Source: Pseudoxanthomonas mexicana | Lineage (GTDB): Bacteria; Pseudomonadota; Gammaproteobacteria; Xanthomonadales; Xanthomonadaceae | DNA length: 64,000 nt | NCBI RefSeq assembly: GCF_010093385.1 | Contig: NZ_PDWV01000011.1 | Span: 18,778-82,777, forward strand | Reading direction: 5' to 3' | In this document: one piece after another, positions 1 to 9,120 of the stretch | Numbering within the stretch: the stretch's first letter is position 1 | How the letters are laid out: every line of letters begins with the position of its first letter | Made by a program: the position numbers and the translations under genes | Notes under the pieces: model-generated | Told to the model about the DNA's origin: nothing | What the model saw: the letters and a program-made list of their open reading frames with translations, nothing else | Databases searched by the model: none

Positions 1-1
1 T

Positions 2-1090
2 CTGTATTCGCCTACGTCGCTTCCCGCCGAGTCGCCACCCACTCCGCGCGGCGAAGAGGGAATTAGGCAGTTTCAACTTTTGCTTTTTGATATGTGCGGT
101 CGTCGCGTGGACGTCTATCACAACCTACTGTGCTGGATGGCGCACAACGTGCAAAAGCCTGGCGTGAAAATCAGGTGGAGTCCGATCCTGAAGGGAGTCC
201 ACGGTGACGGGAAAACCTTAGCAGCTGCTGTCCTTCGCGCTGCAATGGGCTACCGCAATGTCAGCACCACCAGTAACAGCAACATTGCCAACAGCGGCAA
301 CTTCACGGACTGGAGTGTTCGCGGCGCGGTCAACGTGATCGAAGAGATCATGCTGACCGGAAAGCTGCGGCATCAACTGTATAACTCTATGAAGGAGTTT
401 ATCAGCAACAACATCGTTGACATCAATCCAAAAGGTGCCAAGCCCTACCAGGCGTACAACACCACCAACCATTGGGCAAACACCAACCACAACGACGCGA
501 TCCCGTTGGAAAGGACCGATAGACGATGGATGGTGGTGTTTACTCCGTGGTCGTCGCTTGACGAAATGCTCACCTACTGCGGCTTGGACGCCGCCGGCTG
601 GAAATCGCGCACGGATGCAATTGATCACGCTAAGAATCACTGTGCAGGCGAACTGCGGGCATGGTTCCTAAGCGTCAGCATTCCGGCGACGTTCGACGTC
701 AATGGCTCCGCACCGGTGACACCTGAGAAGCGCCGGATGATGGCTAGCAGCAAAGACGACGTTGAGAGCGTCGTTGAATCCATCATTGCCGAAGGTGGCG
801 CGGGAATCACAGACAAGGTTGTTTCAACGGCTCACCTGAGCCGGCTGCTCACGCAGCGCGCGCCAACGGGCGGCTATGACGTACCGAAGACCACGGCGTT
901 GACTTTCATGCTGGCCCGGCTTGGCTACTCCAAGCTGGACAAGCAGGTGAAGTGGCGCGGTGAGACGTTGCGGGTATGGGTTAAGGATGGCGTTGAACTC
1001 ACGCCAGAGGATGTGAGGTCACAACTGGACAACTCGTTACCTCACTTGTTACCTGGACAAACCCTTATGCCACAAGGCTTTCAACCCTAA
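2..1090 (+). CDS. P4-type primase-helicase, C-terminal part (cut by window start)
   Basis: The reading frame is open to the first base, so the true start lies outside the window. Visible is the superfamily 3-like helicase part: a Walker A motif GVHGDGKT, a hydrophobic strand ending in acidic residues (NVIEEI, Walker B-like), and the downstream block NDAIPLERTDRRW typical of phage/plasmid primase C-terminal domains (DUF5906/P4-type). The last roughly 100 residues would be the winged-helix DNA-binding tail that in P4 alpha-type proteins recognises origin iterons. Iteron-like repeats lie inside and just after its 3' end. The last residues (MPQGFQ) repeat the start of the next gene, which hints at a recombination junction. 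Role: replication of the element. The family call is confident. Confidence 0.82.
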   Translation: MYSPTSLPAESPPTPRGEEGIRQFQLLLFDMCGRRVDVYHNLLCWMAHNVQKPGVKIRWSPILKGVHGDGKTLAAAVLRAAMGYRNVSTTSNSNIANSGNFTDWSVRGAVNVIEEIMLTGKLRHQLYNSMKEFISNNIVDINPKGAKPYQAYNTTNHWANTNHNDAIPLERTDRRWMVVFTPWSSLDEMLTYCGLDAAGWKSRTDAIDHAKNHCAGELRAWFLSVSIPATFDVNGSAPVTPEKRRMMASSKDDVESVVESIIAEGGAGITDKVVSTAHLSRLLTQRAPTGGYDVPKTTALTFMLARLGYSKLDKQVKWRGETLRVWVKDGVELTPEDVRSQLDNSLPHLLPGQTLMPQGFQP

Positions 1091-1201
1091 AAGGTAACAA
1101 GTAACAGGATTTATATAAGAGAGAGTAGTTGGAGAGCAAACACATGCCTTATGTCCTGTAGCTCCAGCCAAAAACCACTTGTTACCTGCTACTTGTTACC
1201 T
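1033..1201. repeat. Iteron cluster ACTTGTTACCT, candidate replication origin
   Basis: The 11-mer ACTTGTTACCT occurs exactly at 1044-1054, 1177-1187 and 1191-1201 on the plus strand and at 1092-1102 on the minus strand, with a near copy at 1033-1042. An AT-rich stretch (about 1107-1130) lies between the inverted copy and the pair. The reverse complement AGGTAACAAGT resembles the P4 alpha-protein iteron type (GGTGAACAGT-like, from memory). The position directly behind the primase gene fits an origin bound by the primase tail. Operators for a regulator are an alternative. Confidence 0.55.
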
Positions 1202-1233
1202 ACCACCAAATTACAACGCAGGAGGAACAGCCA

Positions 1234-1530
1234 ATGCCACAAGGTTTCCAAGTTCGCGATGCAGCGGGCCAGATTGTCCTAGACGTTACGGACAGTCTGA
1301 CCCGCATCGTTTCAATCAGCACCATACCGGCTGGCGCGAGCGGAAGCATTCAACTGCCTGAAGGCCGACCCTTTTGGTACACGGGTTCGGCGTACACGCC
1401 TGGCAGCCAGCTTACCGGCTACGCACCCACCGTGACCGTCAACGGCAGCAACCTGCTTTCCTATTCTCCTGGGGCGTTGCTTCCGGGGGCCACCGCAGTC
1501 GATGTTGTTCTAATCACGGGAGTGTGGTGA
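1234..1530 (+). CDS. Small phage tail-fibre-like protein
   Basis: 98 residues, preceded by a good ribosome binding site (AGGAGGA about 7 bases upstream). It begins with the module GFQVRDAAGQIVLDV, which recurs in the next gene (GFEVRNAAGQIVF) and resembles short phage proteins of the DUF6453 type seen near tail-tip or fibre genes. No signal peptide or membrane segment is seen. Its stop overlaps the next start (ATGA), so the two are translationally coupled. The virion role is an inference from module resemblance; no tail genes are visible in the element. Confidence 0.45.
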   Translation: MPQGFQVRDAAGQIVLDVTDSLTRIVSISTIPAGASGSIQLPEGRPFWYTGSAYTPGSQLTGYAPTVTVNGSNLLSYSPGALLPGATAVDVVLITGVW

Positions 1531-2216
1531 TGTCTTCCTATTTCCTTGTACGCAATGAATCTGGACACATCCAGATAGACGATACGTTCTTCAACTATGC
1601 GTTTCACAGTAAGGGAACGGTCACCACTAGCGTGACGGTGCTGGATACTTCTTACGCGACCATCACGCTAACAGGGCTTACCGGCTATCCCATCGTTGCA
1701 GTCAGTCATGCCGCCGGGGCATACGCCTATGTTCGAAGCTTCTCAGGCGATACGGCAGAAATCGCGGTAAGCGCCAAGGGCGCGGCCGGACAGGTGGTGA
1801 GCTACTACGTTTTCACTCCGCCCAATCCTGGCGTGGCTTCGCAGGGTTTTGAGGTGAGGAATGCGGCCGGGCAGATTGTCTTTCATGCGGGCCATCGCTA
1901 CATGCGCGTTGCGGGTCAGTTTGAAGGAGTGCCGAGCACTAACGGCACCGACACCAATAGCACCACGTTATCCGCCGGAAAGACCTACGCGGTTGCCACG
2001 CTCAACCGTGCAGCAGCCAACCGCAACGTCAATCAGTCGCCCATTCCTGGGGACGTGGATTGGTGGAGCTACAACTTTTGGGGTTACTGGAAGGTCGCGG
2101 CCAACGTCGTGACGATGACATCGGCGAACTTTCAGGCGTACCACGCAGACAACACCATGCCCGCCGCCGTGAGCATCCCCGGACGATGCCTGATGCTGGA
2201 CGTGTCCGGCTACTGA
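1530..2216 (+). CDS. Phage fibre-like protein with two repeated modules
   Basis: 228 residues starting at the ATG that overlaps the previous stop. Two copies of the same short module are visible: FLVRNESGHIQIDDTF at the N-terminus and GFEVRNAAGQIVFHAG around residue 110, followed by a Gly/Asn/Trp-rich C-terminal part. The preceding 98-residue protein has the same module, so the pair probably arose by duplication. Likely an extracellular or virion-surface protein of the element. A longer reading frame extends upstream to 1374, but the overlap start is better placed. Confidence 0.45.
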   Translation: MSSYFLVRNESGHIQIDDTFFNYAFHSKGTVTTSVTVLDTSYATITLTGLTGYPIVAVSHAAGAYAYVRSFSGDTAEIAVSAKGAAGQVVSYYVFTPPNPGVASQGFEVRNAAGQIVFHAGHRYMRVAGQFEGVPSTNGTDTNSTTLSAGKTYAVATLNRAAANRNVNQSPIPGDVDWWSYNFWGYWKVAANVVTMTSANFQAYHADNTMPAAVSIPGRCLMLDVSGY

Positions 2217-2361
2217 GTTCGCGCAGTTTCATCCCTCGCCGCGATTGCCGCAGCTATCGCGAGGGGTGCGCCACGAGTCGCAAGACGTATTGCTTTACAT
2301 CACGCCGCAACCCCATTCAATGGGCAACCGGGACTGTCCCAAACACAACCCGGAGTTAGCT

Positions 2362-3609
2362 ATGACCCTCGCAGAAATCCGGCAGCGCAAAGCTGCCAAG
2401 GTGGCCGAACAGCGCGCGATGCTCGCCAAGGCCCAATCGGAAAACCGTAACCTCACCGCCGATGAATCGGCCGCGTTCGACAAGCTCAAAGGTGAAATCA
2501 CCGACCTGGAAGCGGCCGAGTCCCGCCAACAGTTCGTTGACGACCAGGAGCGCCGCGCCGCTGGCGTGACTGTCGTTGCCGGCAACGGTGGTGACACCAT
2601 CGCCGCCCTGGAAGGCCGCGTGTCCATCATGCGCGTCCTGCAGGCTGGCGTTGAGGGCCGCGCGCTGTCCGGTGCGGAACTGGAATACGCGCAGGAAACC
2701 GAACGCCGCACCGGCCGCAAGGCGCAGGGTGTGTTCGTGCCGATGTCCGCGCTGGAACGTCGCGTCAACACCACCGGCACCGCGCCGGAACTGGTGCCGA
2801 CCGATCACCGGGCGGACCTCTACATCCAGCCGCTGCGTAACCGTCTGCTGGCGCGTCGCCTGGGCGTGCGGGTGCTATCCGGCCTGCATGGCAACGTCAC
2901 CATCCCCAAGCACGGCACCGGCGTGTCCGTTGGCTGGGTGGCCGAGAACGGCGCGGTGCCGGATTCGGACGTGAACCCGTCCAACATCACCCTGTCGCCG
3001 AAGCATGCCGGCGGCGTGACCGAACTGTCGCGCCAGCTCATCATGCAGTCCAGCCCGGACGTGGAACAGCTGGTGCGCGATGACTTCGCGGCCGTGCTGG
3101 CTCAGGCCATCGACTCGGCGCTCATCAAGGGCGGCGGTGCCAACGAACCCACGGGCGTGCTGTCCACCGTCGGCATCCAGACCGCGAACCTCGCAACGCT
3201 CAACTGGGCGAACGTGCTGGCGATGAAGGCCAAGGCCGAACTGGCGAACGTGGACGCGTCGTCCTGGCTGTTCAATCCCAGCGTCGCGGCCAAGTTCGCC
3301 GGCACGGAGAAGTCCACCGGTACGGGCATCTACCTGCTGAACGACGAAGGCCGCATGGCGGGCATCCAGTCCTACAGCACCAATCAGGTTCCCAACAACA
3401 CCACGCCTGACCCGGACGCCGGCATTGCCATCCTGGGCGACTGGTCGCAGGTGCTGCTTGGCCTGTGGTCCGAGATTGACATCCTGGTGAACCCCTACGC
3501 CCAGCCGGCCTACGGTCGCGGCGGCGTGCTGGTCCGCGCGATGTCCACCGTGGACGTGGCGGTGCGTCACCCGCAGGCGTTCGTTGTCGCTTCCGACATC
3601 GCCCTGTAA
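2362..3609 (+). CDS. HK97-family major capsid protein
   Basis: 415 residues. The N-terminal 70 or so residues are charged and helical (coiled-coil delta/scaffold region), followed by the HK97 fold with typical elements such as TGVLST, GGVLVRAMSTVDVAVRHP and a C-terminal hydrophobic strand. The start is the ATG behind GGAG; a longer upstream frame (from 2245) crosses a hairpin and is unlikely. The prohead protease follows, then the portal: a complete shell-forming set, but with the capsid gene first. It builds the icosahedral shell of the particle. The family call is secure. Confidence 0.93.
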   Translation: MTLAEIRQRKAAKVAEQRAMLAKAQSENRNLTADESAAFDKLKGEITDLEAAESRQQFVDDQERRAAGVTVVAGNGGDTIAALEGRVSIMRVLQAGVEGRALSGAELEYAQETERRTGRKAQGVFVPMSALERRVNTTGTAPELVPTDHRADLYIQPLRNRLLARRLGVRVLSGLHGNVTIPKHGTGVSVGWVAENGAVPDSDVNPSNITLSPKHAGGVTELSRQLIMQSSPDVEQLVRDDFAAVLAQAIDSALIKGGGANEPTGVLSTVGIQTANLATLNWANVLAMKAKAELANVDASSWLFNPSVAAKFAGTEKSTGTGIYLLNDEGRMAGIQSYSTNQVPNNTTPDPDAGIAILGDWSQVLLGLWSEIDILVNPYAQPAYGRGGVLVRAMSTVDVAVRHPQAFVVASDIAL

Positions 3610-3663
3610 CTGCCAGCAATGTGCAGCCCGTCCATGTGGCGGGCTGCATCTTTGGAGACGCCC

Positions 3664-4188
3664 ATGACCATCGAGAAACGTGCCACGGCCGGCGTGACCG
3701 CCAACGGCCGCAAGCTGACGGGCTATATCGCCAAGTTCGACAGCCCCACCACCATCGGTGACTTCACCGAAATCATCCGGCGGGGAGCTTTCGCGGCCTC
3801 GCTGGCCTCCGGTGCTGACATCCTGGCGCTGGCGGACCACGACTACAGCCGAGTGTTGGGCCGCACGCGTAGCGGCACGCTGACGCTGGCAGAGGACGAC
3901 ACGGGCCTGGCGTTCTCGCTGGAACTGCCCGACACACAAGCCGGGCGTGACCTGGCCGCGTTGGCGCAGCGTGGCGACCTGGGCGGCTGTTCCTTTGCCT
4001 TCAACGTGCCGGCCGGTGGCGACCACTGGAACGGCGATACGCGCGAACTGCGCAATGTGGTGCTGGATGAAGTGTCCATCGTCCAGAGCCGTCCGGCTTA
4101 CGCGGACACCACCGTGAACCTGCGCAGCCTTCGCCCTGACGCCCAACGCTCACTGCTGCATTACTGGTTGGAGACCTGCCGCCCATGA
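3664..4188 (+). CDS. HK97-family prohead protease
   Basis: 174 residues, peptidase family U35 type. Visible motifs are the histidine block LADHDYSRVLGR and the downstream serine block GGCSFAF (usually GMSFGF), the expected catalytic His and Ser regions. It cuts the capsid delta domain and itself during head maturation. The ATG at 3664 follows GGAG; its stop overlaps the portal start (ATGA), so the two are coupled. Lying after rather than before the capsid gene is unusual for a phage head operon. Confidence 0.9.
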   Translation: MTIEKRATAGVTANGRKLTGYIAKFDSPTTIGDFTEIIRRGAFAASLASGADILALADHDYSRVLGRTRSGTLTLAEDDTGLAFSLELPDTQAGRDLAALAQRGDLGGCSFAFNVPAGGDHWNGDTRELRNVVLDEVSIVQSRPAYADTTVNLRSLRPDAQRSLLHYWLETCRP

Positions 4189-5360
4189 AAATCCTGGACA
4201 TGTTGCGCGGCCGCACTGAGCGCCGTGCTGAAGACCCTTCCTGGAACGCCCTGGCAAATGGTGGCAACAACACAGTAGCGGGCGCATACGTGGACAGTCG
4301 CAGCGCTGAGTCAATCTCTACCGTCTTCGCCTGTGTGCAGGCCCTGAGCGAATCCACGGCCTGCCTGCCGCTGCACACGTACCGTCGCAACGACGACGGC
4401 AGCCGGGAGCGTGCAGATAACCATTGGCTGTCTCGCGTGCTGGAACGCCCGAATGACTATCAGACGGGCATGGAGTTCCGGGAGTCGCAGACCGCCACCG
4501 TCCTGCTGTGGGGTAACGCTTACGCCCGTAAGGAGTTCAACGGCGCGGGCGAAGTGACGGCGCTGCACCCGCTGCATCCTGGCCGCATGTCCATCGTGAA
4601 GCTGGACAGTGGCCGCTATCGCTACGACTACACCGACGACAAGGGCCACCCGGTCCGGCTGCTGGCCGATGAGGTCTTGCACCTGCGCGATCGCACGGAC
4701 CCGGCCAGCATTGTCGGCAAGTCCCGCGTGACCATCGCCCGTGAGGCATTGGGCCTGGCGCTGTCGCTGCGGACGCATGGCGCTGCCAGCTTTGGGCGTG
4801 GCGCGCGCCCGGCATCTGTTCTCTACAACGATGGCAAGAGCGACCTGACCACCGAACAGATGACGGCGATTCGTGGCGTGATGGAGAACTACTCCACACC
4901 GGCCAACGCGGGCAAGACGCTCATCATGGGCGTGCGTGGCCTGAAGCTGGAAAACATCGGACTGTCCAACGAAGACGCGCAATGGTTGGAGGCCATGAAC
5001 TTCAGCGTGACCGAAGTGTGCCGCATGTTCCGGGTGCCGCCCATCCTCGTGCAGACGTTGGAACAGGCCAGCTACAACAACGTGGAAAGCCTAGGAGCGC
5101 AGTTCGTGAAGTTCAGCCTGACGCGTTGGCTGACGCTGTGGGAGTCGGCTATCTCGCAGCAGATGCTTGGCCCCATTGCTCGCCAACGCTTCTATGCGGA
5201 ACACGCTGTTGACGCTCTGCTGCGTGGCACTGCCACTGAGCGCGCCGAGTTCTACAAGACCATGATTGAGAGTGGCGTGATGGACCCGGAAGAGGCGCGG
5301 CGCTTGGAGAACCTGCCAGCGCGGCGCGTTGACGCTACACCTACACCACAGGCCAGTTGA
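4185..5360 (+). CDS. HK97-family phage portal protein
   Basis: 391 residues, typical length for the family. Recognisable stretches are the N-terminal ISTVFACVQALSES, LLWGNAYAR, the DEVLHLR strand, the FGRGARPASVL loop, and the C-terminal wing with FRVPPILVQTLEQASYNN. It forms the dodecameric ring at the head vertex through which DNA is packaged. Start overlaps the protease stop. No head-tail adaptor gene follows, only a small terminase-like gene after an 83-base gap. Confidence 0.92.
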   Translation: MKILDMLRGRTERRAEDPSWNALANGGNNTVAGAYVDSRSAESISTVFACVQALSESTACLPLHTYRRNDDGSRERADNHWLSRVLERPNDYQTGMEFRESQTATVLLWGNAYARKEFNGAGEVTALHPLHPGRMSIVKLDSGRYRYDYTDDKGHPVRLLADEVLHLRDRTDPASIVGKSRVTIAREALGLALSLRTHGAASFGRGARPASVLYNDGKSDLTTEQMTAIRGVMENYSTPANAGKTLIMGVRGLKLENIGLSNEDAQWLEAMNFSVTEVCRMFRVPPILVQTLEQASYNNVESLGAQFVKFSLTRWLTLWESAISQQMLGPIARQRFYAEHAVDALLRGTATERAEFYKTMIESGVMDPEEARRLENLPARRVDATPTPQAS

Positions 5361-5443
5361 CGGAAATCACTGGGTTTCAGTTGACGTCTAGACCGGACGT
5401 TCCCTCATTCAGAGATTAAAACCCCATTGAAGGTTCAACAAAC

Positions 5444-5899
5444 ATGACCGCAATGACCAAAAAGCAGCAGGCGTTCGTGACGCACAAGGTGGCGGGATGC
5501 ACAAACCGGGATGCCGCCATCGCAGCCGGCTACGCGCCTGGCAGCGCGGCGCAGGCCGGTGATCGGTTGGCCAAGCATCCGGCGGTCCGCAAGGCCATTG
5601 CAGCGGCCACGAAGGTCACGCCTGGCGTGGATACGAAGACCGGCGCTCCGACTATGCCGCGTGGCAAGTACACCGACCCTAAGTCGTTCCTGCTGGACGT
5701 GATGAACCTAGATGGCCTGCCTATCGCTGTCCGGGCAGATGCAGCGTTCAAGCTCATGCCCTACATGCACGCCCGCATGGGCGAGACGGGGAAGAAAGAG
5801 ACGACGAAAGAAAACGCACGGAAGATCGCGCGTGGCGGTCGCAGCAAGTTCGCAACGCGACAGGCACCGCCCAAGCTGACGGTGGTGCGCAACGACTAG
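5444..5899 (+). CDS. Putative terminase small subunit
   Basis: 151 residues. The N-terminal half (KKQQAFVTHKVAGCTNRDAAIAAGYAPGSA, then KHPAVRKAIAAA, given in parts) matches the helix-turn-helix pattern of phage small terminases that bind the packaging site; the C-terminus is basic. Translation starts at 5444 or at the internal ATG at 5453. No large terminase (ATPase/nuclease) follows before the terminator at 6019, so the element would need one from elsewhere, from a helper, or from left of the window. Confidence 0.62.
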   Translation: MTAMTKKQQAFVTHKVAGCTNRDAAIAAGYAPGSAAQAGDRLAKHPAVRKAIAAATKVTPGVDTKTGAPTMPRGKYTDPKSFLLDVMNLDGLPIAVRADAAFKLMPYMHARMGETGKKETTKENARKIARGGRSKFATRQAPPKLTVVRND

Positions 5900-6018
5900 A
5901 ACACGGTGCCCCAAGCGGATTAGGTGTGAGTGCCGCAGCGACAAAAACCGCACCAGCAGAACCGACTTAGGAGTCGTGAAACTGCACCATGCCCAAGGTG
6001 GTCAAGGCCAAGTTGGGT

Positions 6019-6058
6019 AAAGGCCCCGGTAGTGCGCCAAGGTGCTACCGGGGCCTTT
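6019..6058. terminator. Strong rho-independent terminator, bidirectional
   Basis: A perfect 14-bp stem (AAAGGCCCCGGTAG paired with its complement at 6045-6058) with a 12-base loop, followed by CTTTGTT. It separates the plus-strand head operon from the convergent minus-strand gene that ends at 6064. Confidence 0.88.
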
Positions 6059-6063
6059 CTTTG

Positions 6064-6486
6064 TTACTCGCTCAACATCGGCAAGACAGTTGCTAGCGCC
6101 GATACTATGGAGACGATTAGCGCTGCGATTGACAACCAGAATGCTTTTGTATTCTCAGTGTGCTGTGACAGATGATCCGAGAGAATCGCTGCAAGATAAG
6201 GATAATTTATGCAATGCATTTGATCGGCGATCTTGAAAGCGAATAGATCGACCCTTGCTCCGTCATCCTTCTTGTATCCGTACTCATGGGCAAGGTGATA
6301 GTACAGACGCCCAAAAAGTACGTGCGGATCATCCCCCAGCTTTGAAGCTACAGCCCGCACATCTATTGGCAGATAGATTCGGTTCCCGACGTCATCGTCC
6401 GGCATCTTCTGATTGGCGCGAAAGTCCGCCGCGTACATTTCGTAGATGCAATGCAGAATTTCCCGATCCGTACTTAGCTTCGCCAT
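6064..6486 (-). CDS. Unknown protein with C-terminal membrane anchor
   Basis: 140 residues, not recognised. The N-terminal 110 residues are soluble and charged; one hydrophobic helix sits at the very C-terminus (about residues 115-137, FWLSIAALIVSIVSALATVL), so it is probably tail-anchored with the body in the cytoplasm. GAGAGG precedes the ATG. It lies 10 bases behind 6497-7156, which also has membrane segments, so the two form an operon pointing away from tRNA-Val. Cargo of the integrated element is likely; an anti-phage role is a guess from location only. Confidence 0.6.
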   Translation of the reverse strand: MAKLSTDREILHCIYEMYAADFRANQKMPDDDVGNRIYLPIDVRAVASKLGDDPHVLFGRLYYHLAHEYGYKKDDGARVDLFAFKIADQMHCINYPYLAAILSDHLSQHTENTKAFWLSIAALIVSIVSALATVLPMLSE

Positions 6487-6496
6487 CGCCGACCTC

Positions 6497-7156
6497 TCAT
6501 TCTTCCAATTCGGGCGGCACAGCCCATGACGGTGCGTTGGCGTTCCAAGGCGCGCGCCCGGGCACCTGTGAGAGCGGATGAAGTCGGTCAGTTGCCGAAA
6601 CTACCACCCGGTAGCCCGCCACGATTTCGTCAATCATCACGCTAAATCCGTTCGCGACTTCCAGTAGCGTTACGCCCTCATCGAAGGCATAGCGTTTCTT
6701 AAAGTTGGCGAGCCATCTATCCGCAATCGTCAAATCGAACAACGCATCCGGCGGGAGGTCTCCCACAAACGGCAAGTATTTGTCCGCAATTACAGGGGGA
6801 TAGTTCTTCAGGTAGTGGGATACGCCACTCAGCCATTGCCCATAGCCGAACGGGTTTTGCTTCACTTGCTCGGCGTGGTCAACCACTGAACTCATGGCCG
6901 CGCGAAGGTTGTAGATATCGCCACTAAGGAGAATCGCTGCGGCGGCTGCTCTCTTGGCCTCATCACGCCGCTCCTTGCCGGTCTGCAAGAAAGCTAGCGC
7001 AAGTGCGACCGCCACCGCACCCACGGTTCCCACGGCAGACCACAGTTGCGTCGCCTCAGCGAAACCGAGTGCGCGCGTTCGCCAGCAGGTCACGCCCAGT
7101 CCGACCAAGATCACGACGAACAGCGCTCCGCGACCCAATGCTCTGTTTCCGGTCAT
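6497..7156 (-). CDS. Unknown membrane protein with cytoplasmic domain
   Basis: 219 residues from the ATG at 7156, which follows AGGGAGAC. The frame stays open to 7309 but would then run through a terminator hairpin, so the shorter form is preferred. Two hydrophobic helices lie in the first 60 residues (GALFVVILVGLGVTC and the VGTVGAVAVALALAFL region), followed by a charged helical stretch (KERRDEAKRAA) and a soluble domain to the C-terminus. The family is not recognised. First gene of a two-gene operon between the element's terminator and tRNA-Val. Confidence 0.6.
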   Translation of the reverse strand: MTGNRALGRGALFVVILVGLGVTCWRTRALGFAEATQLWSAVGTVGAVAVALALAFLQTGKERRDEAKRAAAAAILLSGDIYNLRAAMSSVVDHAEQVKQNPFGYGQWLSGVSHYLKNYPPVIADKYLPFVGDLPPDALFDLTIADRWLANFKKRYAFDEGVTLLEVANGFSVMIDEIVAGYRVVVSATDRLHPLSQVPGRAPWNANAPSWAVPPELEE

Positions 7157-7361: not shown

Positions 7362-7436
7362 TGGTGGGCGGTACAAGTTTCGAACTTGTGACCCCTGCCG
7401 TGTGAAAGCAGTGCTCTACCGCTGAGCTAACCGCCC
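7362..7436 (-). tRNA. tRNA-Val (CAC)
   Basis: The cloverleaf folds completely: acceptor GGGCGGT/ACCGCCC, discriminator A, encoded CCA. Anticodon loop TTCACAC gives CAC. The phage-satellite-like region abuts its 3' side, the usual attachment position for tyrosine integrases, but no att repeat can be confirmed inside the window. Confidence 0.95.
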
Positions 7437-7497: not shown

Positions 7498-9120
7498 TCA
7501 GCGGTCCTTGGTATCGCACAGGGCGCTGACCCGACGCGGCGGCGCGAACGCGTCGCTGCGTGCCTCGGCCCAGAAGTCCCGGAACACCGCGTGCGAGGGC
7601 ACCCGGTCCAGCAGTTCGCCCGGCTCGAGGAACCGGTAGAGGGACGCCAGCGATCGCACCTCGATGGGCGACACGCGGCGCAGGATGTGTTCCGGCCCCA
7701 GTTGCCGGGGATGTTCCAGACCCGCCGCGCACAGCATGTCGCGCAGCGCCTTCAGGGTGTTGTCGTGGAACTGCTGCACGCGCACCGACTTGTCGGCCAC
7801 GTCCAGGTGCCTCCAGCGTGCCGGGTCCTGGGTGGCCACCCCCGTGGGGCAGCGGTCGTTGTGGCAGCTCTGCGACTGGATGCAGCCCAGGGCGAACATG
7901 AAACCGCGCCCGGCATTGCACCAGTCCGCCCCCATCGCCATTGTGCGGGCGATGTCGAAGGCGCTGATGATCTTGCCGGCCGCCCCCACGCGCACGCGGT
8001 CGCGCAGGTTCAGCCCGACCAGCGTGTTGTGGACCAGCAGCAGCGCCTCGTGCATCGGCACGCCCACATGGTCGATGAATTCCGCCGGCGCCGCGCCAGT
8101 GCCGCCTTCCGCACCGTCGACCACGATGAAATCCGGCAGCAGGCCGGTTTCGTGCATGGCCTTGGCGATGCCGAACCACTCCCACGGGTGACCGATGGCC
8201 AGCTTGAAGCCGGTCGGCTTGCCACCGGACAGTTCGCGCAGGCGCGCGATGAACTGCAGCAGCCCGACCGGCGTGGAGAACGCCGAATGCGTCGCCGGCG
8301 ACACACAGTCATGCCCCATGGGTACGCCGCGGGTGGCCGCGATCTCGGCACTGACCTTCGCCGCCGGCAGCACGCCGCCGTGGCCGGGCTTGGCCCCCTG
8401 GGACAGCTTCAGCTCGATCATCTTCACCTGCGGCGAGCATGCGTTTTCGACGAAGCGCTCCTCGCTGAAGCGACCCTGCCCGTCACGGCAGCCGAAGTAG
8501 CCGGAGCCGATCTCCCAGACCAGGTCGCCGCCCTTTTCCCGGTGATACGGCGAAATCGAGCCCTCGCCGGTGTCGTGGTAGAAACCACCCCGCCGCGCGC
8601 CCTCGTTCAGCGCCCGCACCGCGTTGGCCGACAGCGCGCCGAAGCTCATCGCCGAGATATTGAACACGCTGGCCGAATACGGCTGCGCCGAGGCCGCACC
8701 GATGACGACGCGGAAATCGTGCGAATCCACGTGCGTCGGTGCCATCGAATGGTTGATCCATTCGTAGTCCACGCCATACACGTCCTGCTGGCTGCCGAAC
8801 GGCACCACGTCCATCACGCCCTTGGCGCGCTGGTACACCAGCGAACGCTGCTGGCGCGAGAACGGCACTTCGGCGGTATCGCCCTCGATGAAGTACTGGC
8901 GGATCTCCGGGCCGACCGACTCCAGTCCGTAACGGAAGTGCGCCAGCACCGGATAGTTGCGGCGCAGCGTGCTGCGGGTCTGCAGCAGGTCCCACGTCCC
9001 CAGCAGCGCCAGGGCGCCGAAGACCGCCACGCCCCACCAGGCGACCGGCCAGAACGCGGCCAGCACGAGCATCGTCACCGCAAGCAGCAGCGTGGCGCCG
9101 TAGGCGAGGTATCGCTGCAT
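7498..9120 (-). CDS. Glutamate-synthase-like FMN-binding membrane protein
   Basis: 540 residues. Two hydrophobic helices at the N-terminus (residues about 8-45) anchor it. The rest is the glutamate synthase central/FMN barrel domain: HDTGEGSISPYH, SQGAKPGHGG, the loop DGAEGGTGAAP, and the cysteine cluster CIQSQSCHNDRCPTG that holds an iron-sulphur cluster in GltB. It lacks the amidotransferase and NADPH parts, so it is not a normal GOGAT. The true substrate of these stand-alone proteins is unknown. Confidence 0.85.
   Translation of the reverse strand: MQRYLAYGATLLLAVTMLVLAAFWPVAWWGVAVFGALALLGTWDLLQTRSTLRRNYPVLAHFRYGLESVGPEIRQYFIEGDTAEVPFSRQQRSLVYQRAKGVMDVVPFGSQQDVYGVDYEWINHSMAPTHVDSHDFRVVIGAASAQPYSASVFNISAMSFGALSANAVRALNEGARRGGFYHDTGEGSISPYHREKGGDLVWEIGSGYFGCRDGQGRFSEERFVENACSPQVKMIELKLSQGAKPGHGGVLPAAKVSAEIAATRGVPMGHDCVSPATHSAFSTPVGLLQFIARLRELSGGKPTGFKLAIGHPWEWFGIAKAMHETGLLPDFIVVDGAEGGTGAAPAEFIDHVGVPMHEALLLVHNTLVGLNLRDRVRVGAAGKIISAFDIARTMAMGADWCNAGRGFMFALGCIQSQSCHNDRCPTGVATQDPARWRHLDVADKSVRVQQFHDNTLKALRDMLCAAGLEHPRQLGPEHILRRVSPIEVRSLASLYRFLEPGELLDRVPSHAVFRDFWAEARSDAFAPPRRVSALCDTKDR

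Follow-up and report, generated by a model that had tools for sequence, protein, structure and literature searches.

The window analysed here is a stretch of 64,000 nucleotides of Pseudoxanthomonas mexicana (contig C18, NZ_PDWV01000011.1, positions 18778-82777, of a 3.97-Mb draft genome), and it opens inside an integrated element of 10.98 kb that is probably a phage satellite: it would build its own head, and a helper phage would supply the large terminase (TerL) and the tail. Its boundaries, its gene content, the empty integration site and a core gene set shared within a lineage of relatives are all read directly from the sequence. Its small terminase (TerS) is of the PF03592 type, linked in the lineage to one portal clade.

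The element is bracketed by a 45-bp direct repeat, the right copy of which (attR; contig C18 26139-26183) lies within the 3' end of an intact tRNA-Val gene, while the left copy (attL) is truncated and gives no tRNA call. Its left end (contig C18 15204-18777) lies outside the window, and to the left of attL stands a long minus-strand host gene, which we take to be gyrA. The joined host flanks (a 460-base query) match end to end (1-459 or 1-460), at 80-91% identity, in 13 of the 37 other genomes of the genus, and the element-free site is therefore common. Repeats of tRNA-Val, 48 and 52 bp long and spaced 10.6-10.7 kb, also delimit two sister elements, and the three elements bounded by such repeats at both ends, namely this one, L037/L053 of Luteimonas endophytica and L038/L054 of L. 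weifangensis, all measure 10.7-11.0 kb.

From left to right the gene order is integrase, an open reading frame (ORF) of 150 amino acids, a helix-turn-helix (HTH)-like ORF, three small ORFs, the DUF5906 gene, orfA, orfB, capsid, protease, portal, TerS, a stem-loop and two minus-strand ORFs, m1 and m2 (Table 1). The original prediction, which proposed a capsid-forming satellite, had expected no prophage module on the left side, and the sequence followed to attL indeed holds the integrase, the HTH-like ORF and small ORFs and no such module. The element does not stop at position 6066, where the stretch singled out by the prediction ended, but continues with m1 and m2 to attR. The genes that it named (primase-like gene, orfA/orfB pair, capsid, protease, portal and TerS) are all recovered by Pfam or PHROGs, at the coordinates given. 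The replication gene, which is 545 amino acids long when taken whole (contig C18 18230-19867), was described as a P4-type primase; its helicase/primase-like nature is upheld by PF19263, but the model of the P4-family primase C-terminus, TIGR01613, scores far below its cut-off (23.4 versus 108.7 bits), and the P4 label is only partly right.

The absences that had been claimed hold as well, that of lysis genes with a caveat. No TerL was found among the element's ORFs in Pfam and PHROGs scans from att to att, and an iterated TerL profile, which reaches 96 ORFs in the 127 loci described below, finds none in the element. Families of tube, tape-measure, tail-terminator and endolysin proteins likewise gave no match in the element, which has no complete tail, and no HNH profile matched either. 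The only sequence that might be taken for a lysis gene is m2, which gives an Rz-like spanin match at 0.0066 and a holin family match at 0.072, both too weak to be accepted. Overall, the tail, lysis and large-terminase modules of a complete tailed prophage are all missing between the att sites, where the phage complement is limited to the head genes, TerS and the orfA/orfB pair.

Table 1. Features of the element and its integration site (window coordinates unless contig C18 is named)
Feature	Position	Strand	Evidence or remark
attL	contig C18 15204-15248		twin of attR, left of window
Integrase	contig C18 15375-16547		phrog_1 4.4e-40; adjoins attL
HTH-like ORF	contig C18 17108-17386		no accepted Pfam match
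DUF5906 helicase/primase-like gene, 3' part	1-1090 (ORF part from 2)	+	PF19263 6.8e-14; phrog_1156 3.2e-34
orfA	1234-1530	+	phrog_2427 8e-14 (phage family of unknown function)
orfB, partner of orfA	1530-2216	+	phrog_4062 2.2e-29 (phage family of unknown function)
HK97-type major capsid protein	2362-3609	+	PF05065 2.7e-37; TIGR01554 1.2e-40
HK97-type prohead protease	3664-4188	+	PF04586 4.7e-40; TIGR01543 5.1e-29
Portal protein	4185-5360	+	PF04860 1e-93
TerS, PF03592 type	5444-5899	+	PF03592 2.5e-8; phrog_641 1.3e-34
Terminator-like stem-loop after head module	6019-6058	+	17-pair stem, T-rich tail; CTTTGTTACT
ORF m1, 140 aa, cargo slot TerS-attR	6064-6486	-	one weak CorA-like match, 0.042
ORF m2, 219 aa, cargo slot TerS-attR	6497-7156	-	weak matches only
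attR, 45-bp direct repeat	7362-7406	-	within 3' end of tRNA-Val
tRNA-Val(cac), integration target, intact	7362-7436	-	ARAGORN

The missing motor is best understood by comparison with relatives. A set of 127 portal-bearing loci was assembled from one single-protein scan, two portal-alignment scans and a family search (it takes 12 of 28 places of one scan and the best 80 of 144 of another), and the loci were annotated with iterated profiles built from reference genes. For comparison with capsid-forming phage-inducible chromosomal islands (cf-PICIs), we used the record LR881103, which is presumably cf-PICI-like, and 44 loci with a P27- or Ant-type TerS. TerL is present in all 40 loci that have a P27- or Ant-type TerS and at least 600 bp downstream, and in none of the 10 loci with a PF03592-type TerS and the same length downstream (0/12 overall, this element included, two of the 12 ending within 100 bp of TerS). 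HNH and connector profiles likewise match in none of these 12 loci. The TerS types themselves are far apart, as the PF03592-type profile meets the P27 and Ant profiles with a probability of at most 0.4% in profile-profile comparison. Pfam assigns PF03592 to the TerS of this element, L053, L006 and L092, PF05119 to that of L105 and, weakly, L116, and nothing to that of L055, whose TerL is PF03354/PF20441. The TerS profile also matches the solved TerS chains 4zc3, 2cmp and 3zqp over the DNA-binding part.

The portal follows this division. In a portal tree of 145 rows, 24 phage rows separate from 121 satellite-type rows, and the 12 loci with a PF03592-type TerS, together with L008, whose contig is cut before TerS, form a 13-row clade inside the TerL-bearing satellites (Shimodaira-Hasegawa-like approximate likelihood ratio test, SH-aLRT, 100); the same clade receives 100/100 (ultrafast bootstrap, SH-aLRT) in a tree of 66 rows. 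The capsid tree (58 rows, 12 of them from the PF03592-TerS group) splits the group, with five changes, at least three of which are forced by well-supported branches. The trees indicate that portal and TerS type remained coupled while capsids were swapped between the two groups. Since the portal is where TerL docks, this coupling is read as a change of motor.

These features would lead one to propose the following cycle. Once a helper phage is in the cell, the element would be cut out of tRNA-Val by the integrase, and the DUF5906 protein would help to replicate it. Capsid, protease and portal would form heads, which may be too small to hold the helper genome, and the PF03592-type TerS would mark element DNA and present it to a helper TerL docked on the element's portal, with the helper HNH nuclease joining if a cos cut is needed. 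Helper connectors and a helper tail would then complete the particle, and the orfA/orfB pair may be added to the borrowed tail tip. The ancestor would have been a canonical capsid-forming satellite with a TerL, and the loss of TerL, HNH and recognisable connectors is likely to have accompanied the replacement of TerS and the change of portal. A more specific version, to which we would give slightly less than an even chance, is that the lineage splits the packaging machine, keeping its own head, portal and TerS and drawing TerL, nuclease and tail from a siphophage of the host family, the tail tip being decorated with orfA/orfB.

The host genome has no match to the TerL families PF03354, PF20441, PF03237 and PF05876, and the helper is therefore expected to come from outside. 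Phages with this type of TerS do exist: in Bcep176 and Silvanus a PF03592-type TerS stands in front of TerL, and among 20 loci newly fetched with the TerS profile (L175-L194), 17 have a TerL, in phage order where the contig shows it, the other three being L175, L177 and L194. One locus, L178, is a 44-kb phage contig (904-3456; 10001-16932) that has a relative of the DUF5906 gene (3e-175) and in which a PF03592-type TerS precedes TerL, portal and connectors; it is possibly a helper-type relative.

However, several observations weigh against a satellite of this kind or limit its support. A search of 297 genomes from the family at E 1e-5 turned up no ordinary prophage that carries a PF03592-type TerS. 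The portal of L175 (TerS at 7576-8163), a later addition, falls in the TerL-bearing sister clade, and its contig ends at TerS; a second exchange of TerS is possible there. In L177 and L194, a PF03592-type TerS lies near integrase genes with no TerL or portal call. The 12 loci are not all independent, since L092 and L093 share one and the same portal, from which that of L095 hardly differs. Because an HNH gene precedes this TerS in 14 of the 17 TerL-bearing phage loci (in the other three the locus starts no more than about 250 bp before TerS), HNH may be a further part that a helper has to supply. Connectors, in turn, may not have been lost, given that orf4 occupies the connector-like gene position of canonical relatives and is weakly similar by profile, its model having four helices and no clear fold match. 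Finally, the ratio of nonsynonymous to synonymous substitution rates (dN/dS) relative to this element is comparatively high for the capsids of L054 (0.48), L092 (0.42) and L096 (0.55), the TerS of L006 (0.36) and the integrase of L096 (0.65).

The orf4 gene leads to the alternative that survives best, although it appears unlikely: that the element is a cf-PICI with head and connectors, orf4 being a diverged connector, which any helper TerL can serve with no specific redirection by TerS. The nesting of its portal among canonical cf-PICI-like loci, together with the position and weak profile match of orf4, is what one would expect in that case, whereas a TerS of another family in 12 of 12 loci and a separate portal clade point instead to a matched set of TerS, portal and TerL. 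A somewhat smaller probability attaches to a defective prophage or decaying remnant that kept its head genes by chance. Such a remnant would account for the lack of a TerL, a complete tail and a known helper, and one likely remnant does occur in the genome G264, where a TerS with no other element match lies near tRNA-Pro. Chance retention is nevertheless difficult to reconcile with core genes and an order kept in relatives of other genera and in IMG/VR contigs, with the uniform size of the three elements bounded at both ends, with intact frames, and with a dN/dS of at most 0.25 in 35 of 40 gene pairs, a rough measure as many dS values exceed 1. The proposal that the head genes chiefly disturb helper head assembly, as proposed for the Vibrio satellite TG93 (PMC13230959), or that the element is an anti-phage device is improbable: it has that precedent and the phage-defence candidates that two relatives carry in their cargo slots in its favour, but a portal, kept under constraint together with capsid, protease and TerS, is more than interference alone would require.

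A satellite that makes its head and borrows its motor also has to be placed among known systems. SaPI-type (Staphylococcus aureus pathogenicity island-type) PICIs encode a TerS without a TerL, as does this element, which in addition carries a capsid gene that such islands lack. P4 integrates at a tRNA gene, and the element resembles it in tRNA-gene integration, a primase/helicase-type replication gene and a presumed dependence on a helper. In the parts of the sources available, SaPI-type PICIs turn packaging to their own DNA with their own TerS but remodel the helper capsid (PMC10690885), whereas this element has capsid, protease and portal genes of its own. In P4 it is Sid that redirects the assembly of P2 capsids (PMC10690885); the element's match to the P4 primase model stays below cut-off.

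The same partial sources describe cf-PICIs as carrying terminases and head-tail adapters (PMC10690885, PMC10448857, PMC13230959), with HNH listed in two of the three, as having a gene set that includes a large terminase and HNH (PMC10690885), and as possessing capsid, head protease and portal, an integrase, an AlpA-type regulator and a primase-replication gene and needing only helper tails (PMC10690885, PMC10448857). The element shares with them the series of integrase, HTH-like ORF, primase-like gene and then capsid, protease, portal and TerS, and its portal belongs to the same larger clade. However, it differs in having no TerL, HNH or recognisable connectors and a TerS from another family, and it is smaller, at 11.0 kb against the mean of 14 kb given for cf-PICIs in the available text of PMC10803314. 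With its own capsid, head protease, portal, TerS, primase-replication gene and integrase but neither a large terminase nor an HNH endonuclease, the element is therefore not filed as a cf-PICI. The original prediction of a capsid-forming island thus holds as regards a small and complete element that has both of its att ends and carries an integrase, a replication gene and its own head genes, but not as regards a cf-PICI in the described sense. Its lineage looks like one derived from cf-PICIs, and it would work as a cross between a cf-PICI and SaPI-type TerS redirection.

Capsid-bearing satellites that lack a full terminase have already been published, as far as the available portions of the papers describe them (TG93, PMC13230959; E. 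coli satellites, PMC10448857). Vibrio TG93/PISP has a capsid gene, a head protease and a small terminase, and neither a large terminase nor a portal is mentioned in those portions; it differs in its capsid protein E family and in being a plasmid without an integrase, and its authors propose disruption of head assembly (PMC13230959). The E. coli satellites targeted by Odn-like nucleases lie mostly beside tRNA genes and have capsid genes but no terminase genes; unlike the present element, which has protease, portal and TerS, they are described as lacking prohead protease, alpA and Pri-Rep and as having tape-measure and baseplate-like genes (PMC10448857). The Streptomyces satellites MulchRoom and MiniFlayer have head genes of their own, and MiniFlayer a tail-fibre protein, but they encode a large terminase and a head-tail adapter (PMC10690885). 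Within the satellite literature searched, in part through incomplete texts, there was no element that has an exchanged TerS beside its capsid, protease and portal and that belongs to a lineage nested among cf-PICI-like elements.

The orfA/orfB pair had been called fibre-like. By family the two genes are phrog_2427 and phrog_4062, and the tail connection comes from the position of homologues, which lie behind the tail fibre gene in host-family phages. orfA matches six phage records, representing five phages, all of Xanthomonas or Stenotrophomonas, whereas orfB in tblastn reaches phiXacJX1 (7e-7) and one Pseudomonas fluorescens phage in two records (9e-6). Among a set of nine proteins, phmmer recovers the orfB homologues phiXacJX1 gp21 (a 'tail protein') and Silvanus gp22 at 4.5e-17 and 1.4e-14, and the same search ties orfA and orfB to Silvanus gp21 and gp22. 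In phiXacJX1, Silvanus, Yut1 and CP1 the pair closes the tail module, standing 3' of the central tail fibre gene either immediately or with one or two genes in between. Of six other places found in the family, five were fetched, and each of these has tail-fibre or tape-measure homologues next to it. The orfB protein is predicted, with low confidence (predicted local distance difference test, pLDDT, 62), to be all-beta. Within the satellite clade, L004 shares the pair with this element, and L008 has a divergent orfB. That the pair may be added to the borrowed tail tip is a guess.

The order of the head genes was thought to be reversed and, for that reason, special. The capsid gene lies upstream of the portal gene in 116 of the 127 loci, and the order capsid-protease-portal-TerS is therefore normal for such satellites. 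Seven of the other 11 loci (L043-L047, L090 and L091) are in phage-type regions, where the TerL gene precedes that of the portal; the remaining four (L061, L068, L101 and L135) are cut short or have no capsid call. One locus of Rhizobium sp. GN54 (L077, 2192-12519) has a primase-like gene, capsid, protease, portal and integrase with no TerS or TerL call, and may be a further TerL-less case in its own right, or else a decayed one. In L096 (426-10166), unlike in this element, primase and integrase are on the strand opposite to the head module.

The contents of the slot between TerS and attR differ among the elements compared. A 449-aa protein in L054 (11898-13247) matches the PADLOC defence candidate PDC-S59 at 2.8e-64, a protein in L006 (8749-9387) matches the candidate PDC-S52 at 5.6e-54, and the slot protein of L053 gives nothing convincing in PADLOC. 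Because the L054 and L006 slots hold such candidates, m1 and m2 could by analogy be a defence gene pair, although neither Pfam, PHROGs, NCBIfam nor PADLOC assigns m1 convincingly to a family and m2 has no match in NCBIfam or PADLOC. In the stretch of the stem-loop that precedes them, two terminator-like sites are found against a mean of 2.3 in shuffles, so that the scan alone is no evidence for a terminator. The HTH-like ORF at the other end of the element has profile relatives in L055, L102, L104 and L117 that match HTH_17 (PF12728) above cut-off.

PF03592-type TerS genes also occur elsewhere. A locus of the same genus (L173, G174:C4, 9596-14790) has an integrase, a 700-aa ORF and a PF03592-type TerS with an in-frame stop, and no match to the element's capsid genes. 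The lone TerS of G264 (L172, G264:C3, 9959-10315) is 69% identical to that of the element and lies about 2 kb from tRNA-Pro; it is likely the remnant of a sister element at another site.

The host family, Lysobacteraceae, is not among the main cf-PICI hosts listed in the available part of PMC10803314. If the satellite proposed here is real, it would be more dependent on its helper than are the standard capsid-forming islands that are its likely ancestors, and the head and the motor of a tailed virus would be divisible between two genomes. Such elements would offer a natural system for asking which contacts, TerS with TerL or TerL with portal, decide whose DNA enters whose head, and the contrast between a portal tree that tracks the TerS type and a capsid tree that does not allows this question to be tested directly.

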